This document shows positions 1-7,799 of a DNA stretch of 64,000 nt, piece by piece. Every line of letters starts with the position of its first letter. Positions within the stretch are counted from its first letter, which is position 1. The translations under genes and the position numbers were made by a program. The stretch comes from an uncultured Clostridia bacterium. Its GTDB lineage: Bacteria; Bacillota; Clostridia; Christensenellales; Borkfalkiaceae. The notes beneath the pieces are model-generated. The model did no database searches, was not told the DNA's origin, and saw only the letters and a list, made by a program, of their open reading frames with translations. The stretch covers positions 1-64,000 of the forward strand of contig CANRNE010000003.1 of NCBI GenBank assembly GCA_947631925.1. The letters run 5' to 3'.

Positions 1-1368
1 CTTCTTTTCAATCGGGTTGATGAGCAGTTCAATATAATTGCGCTCACCGAGCTTGCGGACGAACTTCGCGCTGAATTTGATTTTCCTGTCGCTGAAGGTG
101 ACGGAGGGGCGTTCATAACTATCGAAGAATTCCGACCGTGTGATCTCAAAGCCGCGCAGGTCGAAATCCCCGGCTGCCACTTCGATATGAACGTCCTGTC
201 CTTCGGCACCGGGCGCGGCGGTAGACGTTTCATCGGAAGGGGGAGCGTAAACGCTCTGAGCAGCGGCGAAATAATCGTTTTCCGTGAAGCCAGCCCACCT
301 GGGGTTGATGACAACGAAGCCCTTCAAAATTCCGCTCTCGATGACACGGAGTTCCGGCAGGAAAGACTTGTTTTTGTATTTCGCATTGTCGAGCATTCGC
401 TGAACGGCAATGAAATCGTCTCTTGAAATGATCGCCTCGTGGTGCTTGTGATAGCGGCTCTGTGGACGTTCGCCGCGATTGCGCTTGGATTTGTGGTCGC
501 GGTAGTTCGGCGTGAAGGTTTTCCTTGTCAGAACATCGCCGCAATGCCGCTCGTTTCGCAGAATTTGCAGGATGCCGCTGGATGTCCAATTGACATTTCC
601 GAGGTAAGACTTTCTCCCCAGGGCATTGAACGTGTCTGCTATCTGCTGCGTGGAATAGCCGTATAAATACATATAAAAGGCGAGCTTCACGGTGGGGGCT
701 TCTTCGGGGTTGACCACGAGATTGCCGTCCTCATCGTGCGTGTAGCCGAGCAGTTTCGGGGTGAGGGGGATGCCGTGGTCGAGCCGCATACGAAGCGAGG
801 TCTCCATGCTCCGACTTCTCGTGTGCGATTCTTCCTCTGCCATAGTCGCCTGGAAGGAAAGTGCCATTTGCGAGTCGTCATTGAGGGAGAAGATTGCTTC
901 GGACTCGAAAAACACGCCGACCGGGGACTTGAGTTCGGCGAGATCACGGACGATACCAATGCAGTCGAGGACGTTTCGCGCAAACCTCGACACGCTCTTA
1001 GTGATGATCATATCCGCTTCTCCCGCTTTGCAGGCGGCTATCATTTTATTAAATTCGTCTCGGTGGAGGAGCGATGTGCCGCTGATACCTTCATCGGCGT
1101 AGATGCGGACGAGACGCCAATTCGGGTGGCGAACAACGAACTCCTCGTAATATTTCTTTTGCAGCTCGAAGGAGGTCGTCTGCCGAACATCATTGGTAGA
1201 AACACGGACGTAAATGAACACCCGTTGGGGGACATCGTTATCGTAATAGTCGATGGGTTTTTTCGCCGGGATGAACTCATAGTTATCGGGATCGATTTCA
1301 ACGTGCATCCTTCGGCGGGTTTTTGCTTTCTCAGCTTCCTTTTTTATGCGGCTTTCTTCATCAATCAT
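1..1368 (-). CDS. Large serine recombinase (partial, runs off left edge)
   Basis: Site-specific DNA recombinase of the serine family, probably the integrase/excisionase of the mobile element here. The frame is open from the ATG at 1368 to position 1, 456 codons, so the C-terminus lies outside the window. The catalytic domain is intact: IYVRVST with nucleophile S57, YADEGISG, and ITKSVSRFARN with R128 and R131. A recombinase/DNA-binding region follows (GYSTQQIADTFN, RNERHCGDVL). The start overlaps the stop of the upstream paralogue by 4 bp (ATGA), so the two are translationally coupled. The exact family branch cannot be told without the C-terminus. Confidence 0.93.
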   Translation of the reverse strand, partial: MIDEESRIKKEAEKAKTRRRMHVEIDPDNYEFIPAKKPIDYYDNDVPQRVFIYVRVSTNDVRQTTSFELQKKYYEEFVVRHPNWRLVRIYADEGISGTSLLHRDEFNKMIAACKAGEADMIITKSVSRFARNVLDCIGIVRDLAELKSPVGVFFESEAIFSLNDDSQMALSFQATMAEEESHTRSRSMETSLRMRLDHGIPLTPKLLGYTHDEDGNLVVNPEEAPTVKLAFYMYLYGYSTQQIADTFNALGRKSYLGNVNWTSSGILQILRNERHCGDVLTRKTFTPNYRDHKSKRNRGERPQSRYHKHHEAIISRDDFIAVQRMLDNAKYKNKSFLPELRVIESGILKGFVVINPRWAGFTENDYFAAAQSVYAPPSDETSTAAPGAEGQDVHIEVAAGDFDLRGFEITRSEFFDSYERPSVTFSDRKIKFSAKFVRKLGERNYIELLINPIEKK

Positions 1369-1970
1369 TTGTCGCTTCCTTCACCGGCTTCTTCATCCGG
1401 TAGCAATTTCCAATCGGGACCGGGGAGGAAGAAGGTGTCTCTCAAATCATTCTGATAGTAAGAGGCGAGGGTGAAAATGTCCTCGGATATGAAATAAATC
1501 CCGATGGGTGGGTTCTGGGCGGCAAGCAATCTGGCGCAGATAGTAACTTCCTGTATTTTCTTCGATACATTGGAAACCTTCTGCGTTATAATGAGATTGA
1601 CCTTTCCGTTCATGGCATCTTCAAGCAATCTGCTCCAAGCAGGAGCGGATTCCATGTTGGGCGCAACGGCTCCTTCATCTATATAAAAATCCACGAGTTC
1701 CCAATTGGGGCAGAGGGCAATCGTGTCTATGAATTGTCGTTTGTGGTATGAAAGGTAGTTGTCGTATTTGGTCTGATTGAAGTAACGGATATAAACACCG
1801 ATTTTGAATTTGTTTGCCGGGTTGGGGCATTCGTGCCGAATGGTCTGAAGCCACATCTTGTGCTGGACGATTTTCCGACCGTGTTCCGAGTTGTCCTCCG
1901 AGCTGAACGCAAATTGGGGAGAGCGGGCTATTTCGTTGAACTTGCTGACTATGTCGATTTCGTTTGCCAT
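1365..1970 (-). CDS. Inactive serine-recombinase-like protein
   Basis: 201 residues. Residues about 55-170 align by eye with the catalytic domain of the neighbouring recombinase (VYIRYFN against IYVRVST; PNWELVDFYIDEGAV against PNWRLVRIYADEGIS; LIITQKVSNVSKK against MIITKSVSRFARN). The catalytic serine is replaced (R62-Y-F-N) and both arginines of the SRxxR motif are gone, so it should not cut DNA. No DNA-binding C-terminal domain is present; a short acidic tail ends it. It shares an operon with the active enzyme, with a 4-bp overlap. Inference: a partner, directionality or regulatory subunit. It could also be a decaying copy, but the frame is intact. Confidence 0.8.
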   Translation of the reverse strand: MANEIDIVSKFNEIARSPQFAFSSEDNSEHGRKIVQHKMWLQTIRHECPNPANKFKIGVYIRYFNQTKYDNYLSYHKRQFIDTIALCPNWELVDFYIDEGAVAPNMESAPAWSRLLEDAMNGKVNLIITQKVSNVSKKIQEVTICARLLAAQNPPIGIYFISEDIFTLASYYQNDLRDTFFLPGPDWKLLPDEEAGEGSDK

Positions 1971-2084: not shown

Positions 2085-2114
2085 TGAAAAGAAAAGAGCG
2101 GAACGAATCCGCTC
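2085..2114 (-). terminator. Terminator of the minus-strand XRE gene
   Basis: The stem GAGCGG/CCGCTC (2096-2101 and 2109-2114, loop of 7) is followed on the minus strand by TTTTCTTTT. It overlaps the stop codon of the XRE gene ending at 2113. Confidence 0.55.
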
Positions 2115-2469
2115 AGAAGTTGTCATCCGGTTTATTGTGTAGCGATTGCTTCACCTCTTGGACGATTTTCAAAATCGACTCGATTTCGGCGGGGGTGCAA
2201 TCTTTGAGAGTGTCCGAAAACTCTTGCTGGTATAGCTGATTGACGGTGGGGATGTTCGGTCGTAAAATGACATCAGCAGAGATGCGGAGGGCTTCGATGA
2301 CCTTTCGGAAGGTCAACACGTTCATCCGCGCTTTGCCGAGTTCAATGTCACTTATATGCGGCACGGAGATTCCGGCGGCGTATGCTAAATCTGCCTGGCT
2401 CATCTCACACGCTATTCTGGCTTCTCGGATTCGCTGCCCGATCAGCTTCAATTCAGTTGCTTCATCCAT
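2113..2469 (-). CDS. XRE-family transcriptional regulator
   Basis: 118 residues with a helix-turn-helix of the XRE/Cro type at about residues 8-65 (IGQRIREAR, MSQADLAYAAGIS, HISDIELGKA). The C-terminal 50 residues are charged and helical. The ATG at 2467-2469 has an AAGGAG ribosome site. It diverges from a second XRE gene across 159 bp and lies upstream of the recombinase pair. It is likely the repressor controlling element genes. No peptidase domain is present, so it is not a LexA/CI-like cleavable repressor. Confidence 0.85.
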   Translation of the reverse strand: MDEATELKLIGQRIREARIACEMSQADLAYAAGISVPHISDIELGKARMNVLTFRKVIEALRISADVILRPNIPTVNQLYQQEFSDTLKDCTPAEIESILKIVQEVKQSLHNKPDDNF

Positions 2470-2628: not shown

Positions 2629-2991
2629 GTGGCACTTAATTACATATTGCTTGGCAAACGCATTAAGGATTCCCGGTGCAAACGGAAGTTGTCCCAGGCT
2701 TCGCTTGCGGAAATGATCGACAAATCGCCAACTTACGTCAGCTACCTGGAGAGCGGCATTAAATGCCCAAGCCTTGACACGCTCGTTCAAATAGCGAATG
2801 TTTTACAGGTATCCGCAGACTGTCTTTTGGCAGAAAGTTTGAATAGCCCGCTTGAAGTGGATTCTTCAGAGTTTGATGAGGTTTTCGATGACTGCAATCC
2901 GTATGAGCGGAGAGTCATCATCGAAACCGCGAGGGCTTTGAAGGCGGCAATGAGGGAATATCACTTCCTTTCGAAGCGACAAAAGCCTTAA
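2629..2991 (+). CDS. XRE-family transcriptional regulator
   Basis: 120 residues. The helix-turn-helix domain spans about residues 5-65 (LGKRIKDSR, LSQASLAEMIDKSPTYVSYLESG). The C-terminus resembles the other XRE protein in style (DECNPYERR-type helix before a charged tail). GTG at 2629 is the preferred start because GGAGGG lies 8 bp upstream; a TTG at 2611 would place the ribosome site inside the gene. It is a probable regulator of the cargo operon or of the divergent genes. Confidence 0.83.
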   Translation: MALNYILLGKRIKDSRCKRKLSQASLAEMIDKSPTYVSYLESGIKCPSLDTLVQIANVLQVSADCLLAESLNSPLEVDSSEFDEVFDDCNPYERRVIIETARALKAAMREYHFLSKRQKP

Positions 2992-3017: not shown

Positions 3018-3064
3018 CAAACAATCGACCGATGGTCAACGGCATCACCATCGGTTTGTTTTGC
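3018..3064 (+). terminator. Rho-independent terminator after XRE gene
   Basis: The stem CCGATGGT (3029-3036)/ACCATCGG (3047-3054) is followed by TTTGTTTTG. It separates the XRE gene from the cargo operon. Confidence 0.7.
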
Positions 3065-3073
3065 TATGATTTT

Positions 3074-3142
3074 TTACATTTTCGCGGATTTCGATTACAT
3101 TTTCAAAGGAGCGCAGAAATGGGTAAAGAAATATGCTATAAT
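3074..3142 (+). promoter_or_regulatory. Cargo-operon promoter with direct-repeat operator
   Basis: An extended -10 box, TGcTATAAT, lies at 3134-3142 without a recognisable -35. Upstream are two exact copies of TTACATTTTC (3074-3083 and 3095-3104), 21 bp apart, i.e. on the same helix face. This looks like an operator or activator site for an element-encoded regulator such as the AbrB-like protein that begins the operon. Confidence 0.5.
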
Positions 3143-3174: not shown

Positions 3175-3387
3175 ATGGTATGGACGAGAAAAGTATCTGC
3201 AAAGGGCAGCGTGACAATTCCTGCGGAAATCCGTAAGCTCTTAGGTCTTGTCCCCGGCGGCGAGGTCGCTTTTCTCGGTTCGGGACGAGGGAGCGTGGTT
3301 ATGGTCAATGCTGCGGAACTGTCAGAAGCCGCAACACAGGATTTGCAGGCGGGGATGGAAAAACACAAGGAGAATGACGATAAATGA
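3175..3387 (+). CDS. AbrB/MazE/SpoVT-type DNA-binding protein
   Basis: 70 residues forming a single swapped-hairpin AbrB domain (VSAKGSVTIPAEIRKLLGL, PGGEVAFLG). Small proteins of this kind serve as antitoxins or transition-state regulators. GGGAGG lies 6 bp upstream of the ATG. It is the first gene of the cargo operon and overlaps the next gene by 4 bp (ATGA). The next protein does not resemble MazF, PIN or other known toxins, so an antitoxin role is only inferred. Autoregulation at the 3074-3142 site is plausible. Confidence 0.78.
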   Translation: MVWTRKVSAKGSVTIPAEIRKLLGLVPGGEVAFLGSGRGSVVMVNAAELSEAATQDLQAGMEKHKENDDK

Positions 3388-4001
3388 AGCCCGAATATTT
3401 TATTTATGAGCTGGACGACTACTCGTCTCCTACAATCGTTTCATGGACAAAACCATATTTCGGAACGATAGGGGACTTTAAGAGCTTGGTCGATAATCTT
3501 CCTGGGAAAAGCATGGAAGAGTTGAGGAACACCTTTGAACGCTTCGCCGCCGGAGAACGGAGAATTGTGTATCACGCAGGGCAAGCAAAGATCCGTTTCG
3601 CCCACAGAGTATCGCTGCTTGCCGAAAAGCAGTTTGACTTGAAAAAGCTCACGTTTGAATACAAGAACACCTACGGTTTTCCATATAAAATTCGGATGAC
3701 TTCGGCGGTGGGGCGGCTTTGTCTGTTCAAATACGAGAAAGTTTTTTATACGGTGATTTGGGCGAAATTGGAACGGCCGAGATATTGCAATAACCACTTT
3801 GACGGTCGCCGCTGGACGGAACTTGGAGATATGATTTGGGGCTTCCCCGGACAGATAAAGATGGAGGGAAAATTCATGAAGAACGCGCTCGGCGTTATCG
3901 AGAAGAGATTTGATGACGAGGCAGCCGCCAGGGAGCATTTTGCGAGTGTCTCCGAAATCGACTGGCAGAAATTCTATGAGGATGTGTTTGGGGATGGCTG
4001 A
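3384..4001 (+). CDS. Unknown protein, possible partner of AbrB-like protein
   Basis: 205 residues, soluble, no signal peptide or membrane segment. I do not recognise the family. The central part is rich in aromatic and basic residues (KLTFEYKNTYGFPYKIRM, DGRRWTELGDMIWGFPGQ), and the C-terminus is acidic and aromatic. It starts at 3384 inside the stop of the AbrB-like gene and overlaps the next start by 8 bp. The layout resembles an antitoxin-toxin pair, but no toxin motif is visible. Confidence 0.7.
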   Translation: MKPEYFIYELDDYSSPTIVSWTKPYFGTIGDFKSLVDNLPGKSMEELRNTFERFAAGERRIVYHAGQAKIRFAHRVSLLAEKQFDLKKLTFEYKNTYGFPYKIRMTSAVGRLCLFKYEKVFYTVIWAKLERPRYCNNHFDGRRWTELGDMIWGFPGQIKMEGKFMKNALGVIEKRFDDEAAAREHFASVSEIDWQKFYEDVFGDG

Positions 4002-4326
4002 GACAAAAGAGATTATCAAAAAATCGGTAAGTGTTTCGCTCGACAAAAGGATTATTGAGCCTGCAAAGTGCATTTGCAAAAGGCTCGGTATTCCGTTCAA
4101 TGTCGCAATCAACCTCTTTTTGTACCAGCTTGTCTACACAAAGAGCATACCATTCCCGATAGTGCTTCCCTCCGAAGAAGTAATGGAGCAGTTTGACCTC
4201 TATTTGAAAATTTCCGAAGCGATGGAGAGAGGAGAAAAGGATGGGTTGATTCCGGCAGAAGAGGCTTTTGCTCGAATCCGAAAAGAGCTGGAAAACAAGA
4301 TTGAGGAGGACAAAAATGGGGGTTGA
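3994..4326 (+). CDS. RelB/DinJ-like antitoxin-family protein
   Basis: 110 residues. The N-terminal ribbon-helix-helix region (KSVSVSLDKRI, RLGIPFNVAINLFLYQLV, KSIPFPI) matches the RelB/DinJ antitoxin pattern. The C-terminal 50 residues are charged helix (AEEAFARIRKELENKIEE). ATG 3994 overlaps the stop of the upstream gene. The reading frame opens further upstream, but that part overlaps the 205-residue gene out of frame. No RelE/YafQ-type toxin follows; the next gene is unknown. Confidence 0.75.
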   Translation: MAETKEIIKKSVSVSLDKRIIEPAKCICKRLGIPFNVAINLFLYQLVYTKSIPFPIVLPSEEVMEQFDLYLKISEAMERGEKDGLIPAEEAFARIRKELENKIEEDKNGG

Positions 4327-4957
4327 TTACCGTTTTTATGTCGAAGTGAAGGCGGGCGGCAAGTGGTTTAATATAAGCCCAATGATTCGCAACGTGGACG
4401 GCAAGGTTCGGACGGTTCCGCTTTTGACCGGGCGGTCTATGCTTTATGATTTCGTCAATGATTTAGAGGAGTTTGCATCGCAGAGGGGCGTTCCCGAAGA
4501 TGCTTCAGAGGACATCAAAGGCGTTTTCCATCAGCCATTAGATGAGGAAATGTCGGGGTTTGGACATCGCACCTTCCGGCAGTATTACCAATCTCTCGTC
4601 TTTGTGGTCAAGTATGTTCCGGCAATCAGAAGCCGTGTCGTTAAGGACCGCCCGTGCAAGTTTCGGGGTTATGTGAGCAAGCGGCAAATCGCAGGTTTTG
4701 AGGTGAATGAATTCGATGAGATTACCTCTTGGTTGACTCCCCAGGAATACAATGCGCTACCTCCCAACAAGCAGAAATACTATGCCTGGTTTGAGTGGAA
4801 TGAGCCGGACAGCGAATACGGTCATCTGTATGACCTTTATCAGAAGATTGAGAACCAGCTTGTGTGGTTCGTTCGGCATGGTATTCCGTATGGTTCGGAG
4901 ATCGATAGTGAAACGATTTCCTTCAGCGATGTCCGAGTGATTGTTCAACAGGAATGA
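4316..4957 (+). CDS. Unknown protein in cargo operon
   Basis: 213 residues, predicted cytoplasmic, family not recognised. It opens with a beta-rich segment (VDYRFYVEVKAGGKWFNISP) and holds acidic and aromatic stretches near the C-terminus (YYAWFEWNEPDSEYGHLYDL). The start overlaps the RelB/DinJ-like gene by 11 bp, and the stop overlaps the next gene by 4 bp, so it is coupled to both. By position it could be the effector of that antitoxin-family protein, but no catalytic motif supports this. Confidence 0.7.
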   Translation: MGVDYRFYVEVKAGGKWFNISPMIRNVDGKVRTVPLLTGRSMLYDFVNDLEEFASQRGVPEDASEDIKGVFHQPLDEEMSGFGHRTFRQYYQSLVFVVKYVPAIRSRVVKDRPCKFRGYVSKRQIAGFEVNEFDEITSWLTPQEYNALPPNKQKYYAWFEWNEPDSEYGHLYDLYQKIENQLVWFVRHGIPYGSEIDSETISFSDVRVIVQQE

Positions 4958-5229
4958 AAGAGAACACGAAAAAAACTGCCCAAGAGAAGGCAGCTGAAGA
5001 GGGCTATCCCGTGCCATTGAATTTGGACGGTGTCTATTGCCGAGTGGAGCGTAACGGAAGGTGGTTTGACCGCTGCTTTTCCGATCTCACGGAAGAAGAA
5101 CAGGAGAAGTTCCTCGACAGGCTCGACACGGCGGCACAAAGGCGGCTGTGTCGGCTTTTAGCGGCTTGTTTGAGAACTTGCTCGGAAGAAAAAGAGAAGG
5201 GGGACACAGGCGATGTCTCGGCGGTTTAA
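4954..5229 (+). CDS. Small unknown protein
   Basis: 91 residues, charged, cytoplasmic. The middle reads as a compact beta/helix unit (LNLDGVYCRVERNGRWFDRCFSDLT) followed by a helix (EEEQEKFLDRLDTAAQRRLCRLL). Similar short proteins occur in clostridial mobile elements (recollection, not a search). It overlaps both neighbours (4 bp upstream, 17 bp downstream). Confidence 0.65.
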   Translation: MKENTKKTAQEKAAEEGYPVPLNLDGVYCRVERNGRWFDRCFSDLTEEEQEKFLDRLDTAAQRRLCRLLAACLRTCSEEKEKGDTGDVSAV

Positions 5230-5953
5230 TTCGAACCTTTATTTGAACTGCGCTATTCGTTATCAAGACCATGAACTTCGGGCGATTTATCTGCCCAATG
5301 ACTATCTGTGGGCAAGAGGGAGATATCCGACAAAGATTCGACCTTGTGATTTGCCGGATTGGTATGTCTCCGGCTACCTTTTCAAGCGGCAGGGTTATTT
5401 GTCGGCAAAGGGAATCGTGGACATCGTCTATCGACCGGATTATTTCGTTGAGAACCACTCACACAAATACGATTCTCTCTTCGTCTCGTTTCATGACAAA
5501 ATCACCAGAACATTCGATGAGCGCGGGTTTGACCGATTCGATGGGTACGATTACGCAATGTCGGGGTACATCGGCTATCAGCTCATTGAGAAGATGAAGA
5601 TTTATGCCCCGAACATCAATACCGATGAAATCGTTCGGGAACTGTTTCTCAAAGAGAAATGGTATATGATGCGCAAGGACGGCGGTCCGCTCGTAATCAC
5701 CGAGGAAACGCCTGTGCGTGTTTTCCGATCTTGGATGTCAAAGCCGTGGATTTTGGGGCTTGAATTCAATGACAGCAGCTTCGAAAGCATTGATATGAGG
5801 GTGCTTGCCAGGAAGATGCCGAAGGTGGCTGAGCATTTGGACTACTTTCAAGAGAAGCGAATTGCGCAGACTGACCTCTATGGCTATGGGGTGGCTTTCG
5901 ACTGCGGGTTACGTCTGACCGCTGCCGAGTGCTATGAGTTTTGCAAAGGGTGA
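5213..5953 (+). CDS. Unknown protein in cargo operon
   Basis: 246 residues, no signal or membrane segment, rich in Tyr, Phe and Asp (RGFDRFDGYDYAMSGYIGYQ). I do not recognise a domain. It begins within the previous gene and ends 4 bp before the Phd-like gene. With the 205- and 213-residue proteins it makes three unknown proteins of similar size and aromatic content in one operon, each near an antitoxin-family gene. Confidence 0.7.
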   Translation: MSRRFNSNLYLNCAIRYQDHELRAIYLPNDYLWARGRYPTKIRPCDLPDWYVSGYLFKRQGYLSAKGIVDIVYRPDYFVENHSHKYDSLFVSFHDKITRTFDERGFDRFDGYDYAMSGYIGYQLIEKMKIYAPNINTDEIVRELFLKEKWYMMRKDGGPLVITEETPVRVFRSWMSKPWILGLEFNDSSFESIDMRVLARKMPKVAEHLDYFQEKRIAQTDLYGYGVAFDCGLRLTAAECYEFCKG

Positions 5954-5957
5954 TTTC

Positions 5958-6155
5958 ATGAGCCTGGTTGTGACGGAGAAAGAGGTCGCGGAAAAGCTCG
6001 AAGAGTTCCTTCAACTTTCCGCAAAAGAAGATGTTTTTATTACTCGCCGTGGGCGCGTGATTGCGGTTTTGACAAAGCCGGATAAAGGCGGCGCGGAGAT
6101 AATAGCTTCGTTGAAAGATGCGATGCCCAGGGGAGCGAACAATGGGGAAATTTAA
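5958..6155 (+). CDS. Phd/YefM-like antitoxin-family protein
   Basis: 65 residues. The pattern VTEKEVAEKLEEFLQLSAKE followed by DVFITRRGRVIAVLTKP is that of the N-terminal Phd/YefM DNA-binding fold (helix, then strand-turn-strand around TRRGRVIAVL). The C-terminal toxin-binding region is very short. ATG 5958 lies 4 bp after the preceding stop. No Doc, RelE or YoeB toxin is adjacent; the next gene is DpnD/PcfM-like. Confidence 0.7.
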   Translation: MSLVVTEKEVAEKLEEFLQLSAKEDVFITRRGRVIAVLTKPDKGGAEIIASLKDAMPRGANNGEI

Positions 6156-6339
6156 GGTAGCCATTGAGGAAACGGTGGTCGATGAATTTACTGTCGAGGC
6201 AGACAGCGAGAGTGAAGCCTTAGAGATTGCCAGGCAGAAATATAGAAACGGGGAATTCGTCCTGGAACCGGGCGAAGTGCAATACAAACAAATGGCGATT
6301 GTGTCCGGAAAGGAAAATCACGAGTGGCACGAATTCTAA
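6142..6339 (+). CDS. DpnD/PcfM family small protein
   Basis: 65 residues. FKVAIEETVVDEFTVEAD, SEALEIARQKYRNGEFVLEPGEV is the DpnD/PcfM signature, a short alpha/beta protein common on conjugative and integrative elements (established occurrence; function not known). ATG 6142 overlaps the Phd-like stop by 14 bp. Confidence 0.78.
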   Translation: MGKFKVAIEETVVDEFTVEADSESEALEIARQKYRNGEFVLEPGEVQYKQMAIVSGKENHEWHEF

Positions 6340-6352
6340 AAGGCAGGAAAGC

Positions 6353-7156
6353 ATGAAATATTATGTGGTTTCGGACGTCCACGGGTTCTACACGCCGCTG
6401 GTGTCCGCCTTAAAAGAAAAGGGATTTTTCGATGACAAGGAACCGCACAAGCTCATTGTTTGCGGCGACCTTTTTGACCGTGGAGAGGAAGCCGAGAAAA
6501 TCCAAGAGTTCATTTGCGATTTGCTTGAAAAAGACCTCGTGATTCTGATTCGCGGAAACCACGAGGACTTGGTAGAAGAGTTGGTTGAGAACTTCGGCGA
6601 GTGGATGACGATCGACCTCATCTATTCGCATCATTGGCACAATCAAACGCCGCAGACCGTGTTCCAGCTCACGCACAGCGATTTATATGAAGCAACGACC
6701 ATGCCGAAGAGGGTTTCTCTCAGAATGAAGGAAACGCCGTTCTTCAAGAAGATTCTCCCGGCGATGGTGGACTATTACGAGACGGAAAAATATATCTTCG
6801 TGCATGGCTGGATTCCCGCTGATGGCATCGGCGGCAGCCGCCCGCAGTATTTCTATCCGATTGAAAATTGGCGCGGGAGCGATGCCACCCGGTGGAGGGA
6901 GGCGCGGTGGTTCAATGGGATGCTTGCCGCATCGTGTGGCGTAACGGAGCCGGGGAAAACAATCGTCTGCGGGCATTGGCACACCTCCTACGGACACTCT
7001 ATCCTGGAAGGCAAATGCTCGGAGTTCGGAGATGATGCCGAATTCACGCCGTATTACGGAGAAGGCATTATTGCGATTGACGCTTGCACGGCTCACTCCG
7101 GGTTCGTCAACTGCATTGTTTTGGAAGATGAGGAATTGCAGAAAAATGGCGACTGA
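6353..7156 (+). CDS. PPP-type metallophosphoesterase
   Basis: 267 residues. Metal-binding motifs are complete: SDVHG (D8, H10), GDLFDRG (D39, D42), RGNHED (N69, H70), FVHGW and CGHWHT. This is the arrangement of phage and bacterial PPP phosphatases related to lambda phosphatase and ApaH, acting on phosphoproteins or dinucleotide polyphosphates. Substrate unknown. AGGCAGGAAAG precedes ATG 6353. It is the only clear enzyme among the cargo genes and overlaps the next gene by 11 bp. Confidence 0.88.
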   Translation: MKYYVVSDVHGFYTPLVSALKEKGFFDDKEPHKLIVCGDLFDRGEEAEKIQEFICDLLEKDLVILIRGNHEDLVEELVENFGEWMTIDLIYSHHWHNQTPQTVFQLTHSDLYEATTMPKRVSLRMKETPFFKKILPAMVDYYETEKYIFVHGWIPADGIGGSRPQYFYPIENWRGSDATRWREARWFNGMLAASCGVTEPGKTIVCGHWHTSYGHSILEGKCSEFGDDAEFTPYYGEGIIAIDACTAHSGFVNCIVLEDEELQKNGD

Positions 7157-7475
7157 AAGACAAACCGAGATTGACGCTCCGTCCCTGGAAGAAATCCTTC
7201 AAAAGCATTTCGGCTTGAAAGGGAACTTGTATTTGAAGCGACCAGTCGTGTCGGGTTGGGTTGGCGGCAATAAAGAGAGGGGAGACTTCGATGCTCCGTC
7301 CCCGGAATATCGGTATTTCACCCTGGCGGGCTTTCGGGCTTACGAGCGATTTATTTCCGCACTGTACGACCTGGCGAACCATGTCGAGACATTCATCGAT
7401 ACCGATCTTGGGAAGCGCATCAGCCACCTTGATGACACCTTCGATGAATATGAGCATGAACCGTGGAATTCTTAA
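7146..7475 (+). CDS. Unknown small protein
   Basis: 109 residues, acidic, no known domain. Its C-terminal half looks helical (FRAYERFISALYDLANHVETF, ISHLDDTFDEYEHE). It starts 11 bp before the phosphatase stop, so it is translationally coupled to it and may act with it. Confidence 0.62.
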   Translation: MATERQTEIDAPSLEEILQKHFGLKGNLYLKRPVVSGWVGGNKERGDFDAPSPEYRYFTLAGFRAYERFISALYDLANHVETFIDTDLGKRISHLDDTFDEYEHEPWNS

Positions 7476-7514
7476 AAAGGAAAGCAAAGACTGGCGTAGG
7501 GGTTGAGTGAAAAG

Positions 7515-7697
7515 ATGAGAAAGAAAAAACCGAAATTGAATTACAAATTCCATCATCCGAATCCGGAGCAGTTGATTGGGACGATTTTGCAGGTTTGCAT
7601 CGAAGCGAATATCCCTCGTGTCGATAAACTCCTGGCGCAAGAGCCGATGGAAAGCCAGGAAAAAGATGAGGAGAAAAATGAGGGAAAAACAGTTTGA
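7515..7697 (+). CDS. Small unknown mobile-element protein
   Basis: 60 residues, very basic N-terminus (MRKKKPKLNYKFHHPNPEQ) and acidic lysine-rich end. The YKFHHPNP...ANIPRVDKLL pattern recalls short proteins of Firmicutes integrative elements (memory, not a search). ATG 7515 is preferred over the in-frame TTG 7503. It is the last gene of the operon, directly before the periodic repeats. Confidence 0.55.
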   Translation: MRKKKPKLNYKFHHPNPEQLIGTILQVCIEANIPRVDKLLAQEPMESQEKDEEKNEGKTV

Positions 7698-7731: not shown

Positions 7732-7799
7732 TTTGAACGCCCGGCGGTGCATTTGAACGGTCAGAGGGCAATTTGAACGGTCAAGTGACGTTTTGAACG
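7732..7799. repeat. Four TTTGAACG repeats at exact 20-bp period
   Basis: TTTGAACG occurs at 7732, 7752, 7772 and 7792, and three of the four copies are TTTGAACGG. The spacers differ in sequence, so this is an array of short sites rather than a duplicated unit. A weaker TTTGACT lies at 7693. The array lies between the last cargo gene and the palindrome, at the apparent right border of the element. Possible roles are protein-binding iterons, recombination accessory sites or an operator array. Confidence 0.75.

Follow-up and report, generated by a model that had tools for sequence, protein, structure and literature searches.

What is the role of an operon that encodes three kinds of antitoxin-like proteins and no recognizable toxin? 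Such an operon stands on the plus strand at positions 3175-7697 of the stretch analyzed here (the window, 64,000 nucleotides, positions 1 to 64,000 of contig CANRNE010000003.1, assembly GCA_947631925.1), which comes from an uncultured Clostridia bacterium of the family Borkfalkiaceae. An earlier reading of the window, the original prediction, treated the operon as cargo of a mobile element, in which antitoxins head undescribed toxin, defence or anti-defence genes. The cargo label does not fit, because the operon is contiguous with recombinase and XRE regulator genes, in an order that is conserved in a phage family. It is probably part of a temperate phage with relatives in Candidatus (Ca.) Heliusvirales, or of a remnant of such a phage, and would there run rightward next to the integration and immunity genes. 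As to function, we favour, by inference, an early or lysogeny operon of the phage that is switched by the XRE proteins.

Phage relatives and the conserved core

The phage affiliation of the relatives is directly visible. PV036458, a 75-kb Ca. Heliusvirales genome (an Oscillospirales phage) carrying terminase, portal, head and tail genes, is the sole annotated phage match for the 205-, 91- and 246-amino-acid (aa) proteins of the operon. Its leftward genes encode ParB-like proteins and recombinases, followed by a divergent XRE pair. Rightward, the order is phosphoesterase, 205-, 91- and 246-aa homologues, PPP phosphatase, a second 91-aa-type gene and a small RHH-like gene. The same Ca. Heliusvirales-type order, with leftward recombinase genes, divergent XRE pair and rightward operon, is found in the window. 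Unlike the window, PV036458 has no AbrB, 213-aa, Phd or DpnD gene, places an extra metallophosphoesterase first and has two 91-type genes; identities are 31-42% for the 205- and 246-aa proteins. In PV036458 and its two copies in metagenome-assembled genomes (MAGs), the operon is the final phage segment before host DNA, and would therefore lie upstream of the replication genes in the circular phage. Two MAG contigs hold a PV036458-type prophage, with terL about 36 kb away, and the three records longer than 70 kb have a terL 85-100% identical to that of PV036458.

Scans of IMG/VR and GTDB with the single 213- or 246-aa protein gave nothing, and small profiles were needed to detect their relatives. 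These profile searches found the loci L025 to L027 and about 30 IMG/VR loci. The core gene order recurs in PV036458, in genome G230 and in eight further distinct IMG/VR loci. This core comprises a large-serine-recombinase module, a divergent XRE pair, one or more metallophosphoesterases, the 205-aa protein and in most cases also the 246-aa one. The 205-aa family has 12 distinct loci; it is rare and patchy, occurring in 2 of 381 genomes of the class. A search of 150 other family genomes for the 213-aa gene was negative, as was a plasmid search with its protein. For the counts of distinct loci, near-identical copies were collapsed by our own judgement, and assembly edges may hide genes.

Of the 19 distinct loci that encode a member of the 205 or 246 family, 17 had serine recombinase genes in the fetched flanks (raw count). 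The exceptions are large viral contigs, on which the 246-like domain is diverged. Such a domain is encoded in L053, L055 and L056, on viral contigs of 43-194 kb whose fetched flanks hold no recombinase module.

In L026 (1718-4709) and L025 (1330-4391), the recombinase C-terminal domain is also encoded as one or two stand-alone adjoining genes (c236, c130), alongside two ParB-like proteins (HTH311 and DUF6551). Together, the recombinase, the stand-alone C-terminal-domain genes and the ParB-like proteins resemble a recombinase system made of several parts. In L048-L051, genes of the 246 family follow the recombinase, c236 and c130 on the same strand, and the PPP gene of L091 lies downstream of c130, behind recombinase genes and again on the same strand. 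Both the 246 family and the PPP gene are therefore tied to the integration module.

Phosphoesterases are frequent in these regions. About 20 of the 69 operon proteins of ten relatives are calcineurin-like phosphoesterases, and those of the MPE type retain the metal-site motifs. Two to three types (MPE, PPP and a type of about 210 aa) occur per phage region in L016, L043, L045, L046, L060 and L066.

Genes, promoter and flanks of the operon

The operon and its gene order, as originally predicted, were confirmed by the ORF (open reading frame) calls and by orthologues in L025, from a rabbit-gut MAG. The 11 ORFs encode, in order, 70, 205, 110, 213, 91, 246, 65, 65, 267, 109 and about 60 aa, and neighbouring ORFs mostly overlap by 4-17 bp, which suggests coupled translation. 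L025 has same-order orthologues for eight operon genes; its gene order matches except for the 91-aa gene, and the 246-aa protein is 57% identical between the two. In the eight comparable genes, the proportions of nonsynonymous (pN, 0.16-0.33) and synonymous (pS, 0.70-0.87) differences point to purifying selection on all eight. Because pN is far below pS, these are real, constrained protein-coding genes. The operon genes are:

3175..3387, plus strand: AbrB/MazE-like protein, 70 aa (PF04014 E=1e-7, TIGR01439 E=4e-9, both above cutoff)
3384..4001, plus strand: 205-aa core protein, fold without a match (12 distinct loci; AlphaFold2 model, mean predicted local distance difference test score, pLDDT, 88.9)
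3994..4326, plus strand: RelB/DinJ-like protein, 110 aa (TIGR02384 E=4.6e-9, under its NCBIfam cutoff; Pfam E=0.002)
4316..4957, plus strand: 213-aa protein, no family (54% identity to L025, 45% to L060; weak match to phrog_10141, E=6e-4)
4954..5229, plus strand: 91-aa protein, no family (relatives are two proteins in the same region of phage PV036458 and ORFs in L043, L045 and L046)
5213..5953, plus strand: 246-aa core protein, no family (N-terminal 155 aa or so conserved; AlphaFold2 pLDDT 77)
5958..6155, plus strand: Phd/YefM-like protein, 65 aa, weak assignment (PF02604 E=0.061; conserved in L025)
6142..6339, plus strand: DpnD/PcfM-like protein, 65 aa (PF14207 E=6.5e-11, above cutoff)
6353..7156, plus strand: PPP-type metallophosphoesterase, NinI/lambda-phosphatase-like, 267 aa (PF00149 E=2.5e-15; best PHROG phrog_246, E=1e-29)
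7146..7475, plus strand: 109-aa protein without a family match (Pfam, PHROG, NCBIfam)
7503..7697, plus strand: protein of 60-64 aa (by eye resembles a 95-aa protein beside the DUF6551 gene in L039)

The predicted DpnD/PcfM and PPP phosphatase labels are supported by Pfam matches above cutoff. Of the three antitoxin families named, AbrB stands above cutoff, whereas RelB/DinJ and Phd/YefM remain sub-threshold; the Phd/YefM-like protein has a motif, ITRRGRVIAVLTKP, that looks Phd-like by eye. The 205-, 213-, 91- and 246-aa proteins were rightly called unknown, as they, together with the 109-aa protein, lack a Pfam or PADLOC family and any significant match in NCBIfam. None of the operon proteins convincingly matched a catalogued defence protein in PADLOC; only the phosphatase resembles a candidate family (PDC-S10), weakly (E=1e-6). 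For the phosphatase, the nearest solved chain is 1g5b, a Ser/Thr protein phosphatase (E=5e-6), and the family matches, together with the metal-site motifs DVHG, GDLFDRG, GNHE, H and GHWH as read from the sequence, place it in the NinI-like family.

The promoter architecture is likewise open to direct view. Leftward of the operon lie the following features:

1..1368, minus strand: large serine recombinase, N-terminal 454 or so of about 631 aa, cut by the contig edge (86% identical to aa 1-454 of the L025 recombinase)
1365..1970, minus strand: resolvase N-terminal-domain-only protein, 201 aa (PF00239 E=8e-5)
2113..2469, minus strand: leftward XRE regulator (ORF; homologue of the leftward XRE in phage PV036458)
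2500..2593, no strand: operator-like palindromes between the divergent XRE genes (inverted and direct repeats such as ATAGCCCATAGGCTAT)
2629..2991, plus strand: rightward XRE regulator (ORF; aligns with the rightward XREs of relatives)
3026..3057, plus strand: terminator-like hairpin, then a T-rich stretch, after the rightward XRE gene (-15.9 kcal/mol, z=-2.7)
3074..3104, plus strand: tandem candidate operator TTACATTTTC, copies 21 bp apart (pair also in L025, L065 and L067)
3134..3142, plus strand: predicted extended -10 promoter TGCTATAAT (29 bp past the operator at each of the four loci)

The XRE pair (2113-2991) stands between the leftward recombinase genes and the rightward operon. The recombinase belongs to the large serine recombinase family, with Resolvase and Recombinase Pfam domains, and the position of the resolvase fragment is shared with L065, L067 and, by ORF list, L025. 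The hairpin has a counterpart in L025 (-21.5 kcal/mol, z=-4.1) and is conserved in the DNA alignment. Scanning 334 kb of relatives for tandem TTACATTTTC (<=2 mismatches) gave four matches, all at the same place, and 20 rounds of mononucleotide shuffles gave none. In 4/4 loci, TGNTATAAT follows exactly 29 bp downstream of the tandem site. The first gene under this common operator-promoter is AbrB in the window and L025, and a metallophosphoesterase in L065 and L067. As judged from sequence, this is a single conserved regulated promoter whose first gene varies. The adjacent XRE proteins are the likeliest binders of the putative operator. The remaining relatives have other palindromes at the operator position.

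Just past the operon, one feature marks a candidate element end:

7732..7799, no strand: four TTTGAACG direct repeats with an exact 20-bp spacing

A pattern of three TTTGAACG repeats occurs nowhere else in the host genome (<=3 mismatches), and the array is possibly an attachment end or a binding array. As a common element end the repeats were not found in relatives. Beyond them lie ABC transporter genes, and then RNase Y.

Exact attachment sites could not be taken from the two MAGs with a PV036458-type prophage, because the hosts are too alike and the right flanks are rearranged; only the left end was roughly placed, beside a dinB-like gene. In L073 (3293-4540), a PV036458-like prophage starts directly 3' of a dinB/umuC-like polymerase gene, and in L060 a umuC-like gene adjoins the operon. 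A WYL regulator and the BREX genes brxA and brxB begin directly downstream of the operon in L025 (10661-16630). The phage recombinase gene of G230 is interrupted near codon 90 and divided between two contigs (L016:9650-10983 and L039:1-900); a ParB-like gene flanks one side and the end of a different large serine recombinase the other, and another element may have inserted there.

Antitoxin-like genes and rival explanations

A mobile element with an operon of conserved unknown genes, antitoxin-like proteins and no toxin, as originally predicted, is what we found. The further claim, that the antitoxins head new toxin genes, did not hold across relatives. AbrB directly precedes the 205-aa gene in 2 of the 12 distinct loci, namely the window and L025, and in the other ten a metallophosphoesterase or another gene takes this place. 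The 213-aa gene follows RelB in the window and L025 but stands without it in L060. The 246-aa family has no adjoining antitoxin-like gene in L026 and L048-L051, and in several loci it lies directly behind recombinase genes. For AbrB and RelB, the small DNA-binding proteins are thus scattered independently in relatives, an outcome that the original prediction had itself named as counting against it. Phd-like proteins occur in at least seven other loci; that the Phd-like protein of the window belongs to the same subfamily is unsupported (hhalign 3%). Proteins of antitoxin families are present, by their domain matches (AbrB above cutoff, RelB and Phd below). An adjacent toxin of a known or conserved partner family was found neither among the operon proteins of the window (Pfam, NCBIfam) nor among the 69 operon proteins of the ten relatives. 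Structural comparison gave the same picture. The AlphaFold2 model of the 205-aa protein is confident, with long beta strands, and that of the 246-aa protein is fair. At E<=0.001, Foldseek retrieved nothing for the former in PDB and BFVD or for the latter in PDB, neither toxin fold nor any other match, and PDB profile searches gave matches at chance level only.

With their pairings broken in relatives and no toxin among the 69 proteins, the AbrB and RelB genes look like exchangeable passengers. That AbrB and 205, RelB and 213, and Phd and a neighbour form new type II toxin-antitoxin pairs is highly improbable, even though an antitoxin-like gene overlaps or abuts the start of the next gene in both the window and L025. 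Compared with MazEF, RelBE/DinJ-YafQ and Phd-Doc, antitoxin-domain homology extends to up to three small proteins of the window, which has no toxin partner and whose pairings are not conserved. It is also unlikely that the operon serves counter-defence, in which the AbrB-, RelB- and Phd-like proteins would neutralize abortive-infection toxins of the host and the phosphoesterases and unknown proteins would be further anti-defence. Three antitoxin-like proteins in an operon without a toxin would suit such a role, and Phd-like proteins, although of a different subfamily, recur in relatives. Phages are described as carrying orphan antitoxin-like proteins in a passage of PMC12548467 that cites Johannesman et al. 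2025, and gp48 of the mycobacteriophage A10ZJ24 is a counter-defence phosphoesterase (PMC12287305). However, among the loci seen, AbrB and RelB are limited to the window and L025, and AbrB-type proteins are frequently plain regulators. 

We consider it just as unlikely that the lysogen is shielded from other phages by expression of the operon from its prophage. In PV036458 and the MAG copies the operon stands between the immunity genes and the DNA of the host, which is consistent with such lysogenic conversion, as is the BREX operon that directly adjoins the nearest relative, L025. On the other hand, the operon proteins lack a convincing PADLOC match, and the conserved core follows the integrase module, unlike the changeable cargo typical of defence. 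Quite unlikely, too, is a recombination-control module, with the metallophosphoesterase and the 205- and 246-aa proteins as accessory or directionality factors of a multi-part serine recombinase. By this term we mean the large recombinase, the resolvase-only fragment, stand-alone C-terminal-domain paralogues and ParB-like proteins. The genes downstream of the recombinase, c236 and c130 in L048-L051 and L091 argue for it, and there is a precedent in Bxb1 gp47, a relative of calcineurin-like phosphoesterases that serves a serine integrase as its excision factor (PMC12287305). The phosphoesterases of Bxb1 (gp47) and of cluster A mycobacteriophages share with the window the calcineurin-like fold and the setting of a serine-integrase phage. 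Yet their gene neighbourhood differs and pairwise alignment is limited to the metal-site motifs, so that homology to a gp47-type directionality factor was not detected; moreover, the MPE family retains the metal-site residues, whereas gp47 is reported to be inactive. The link of the operon phosphoesterases to gp47 and gp48 is one of analogy only. That the 205- and 246-aa proteins and the metallophosphoesterase, with its metal-site motifs kept, form an undescribed control module deciding between excision and integration by the multi-part serine recombinase of gut phages is distinctly improbable.

The probable phage operon and its meaning

The reading that we prefer is the XRE-switched operon of a temperate phage or its remnant. 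The XRE switch would keep the operon low in the lysogen and release it on induction or infection. The phosphoesterases may then act on phosphorylated host proteins or nucleotides in host takeover, or, alternatively, help to switch the serine recombinase towards excision. In this reading, AbrB, RelB and Phd would be exchangeable solitary regulators or stray antitoxins, and not partners of the unknown proteins. The layout has a parallel in lambda, where the phosphatase ninI belongs to the early right operon. As in the lambda nin region, a PPP phosphatase of the window stands in an early-type operon after an XRE/Cro-like regulator. In contrast to the window, with its serine recombinase, lambda has a tyrosine integrase, no counterparts of the 205-, 213- and 246-aa proteins were detected there, and sequence similarity is confined to a short stretch.

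Several observations weigh against this phage reading. The host assembly lacks the terL, major head protein and HTH311 genes and the remainder of the recombinase; the host contig ends inside the recombinase, and the phage body is therefore unseen in this host. The L025 module has no phage genes in its fetched flanks, and neither phosphoesterase resembles Bxb1 gp47 beyond shared motifs. As L025 also lies beside BREX, and a left phage arm elsewhere in its MAG breaks off at terL, both the window and L025 are possibly remnants. We do not claim L025 as a free-standing satellite: the truncated left arm is on another contig of its MAG, and a split or decayed prophage is therefore as likely.

Ca. Heliusvirales are gut phages with a reported link to metabolic disease (PMC12427128). 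Conserved but unannotated gene families lie in the region next to their integrase genes. Association with the recombinase and the XRE switch holds for the 205- and 246-aa families and for the phosphoesterases, but not for the AbrB and RelB genes. This moves the focus from the hunt for toxins to the lysogeny switch and host takeover, for which a conserved operator-promoter is now available for experiment.

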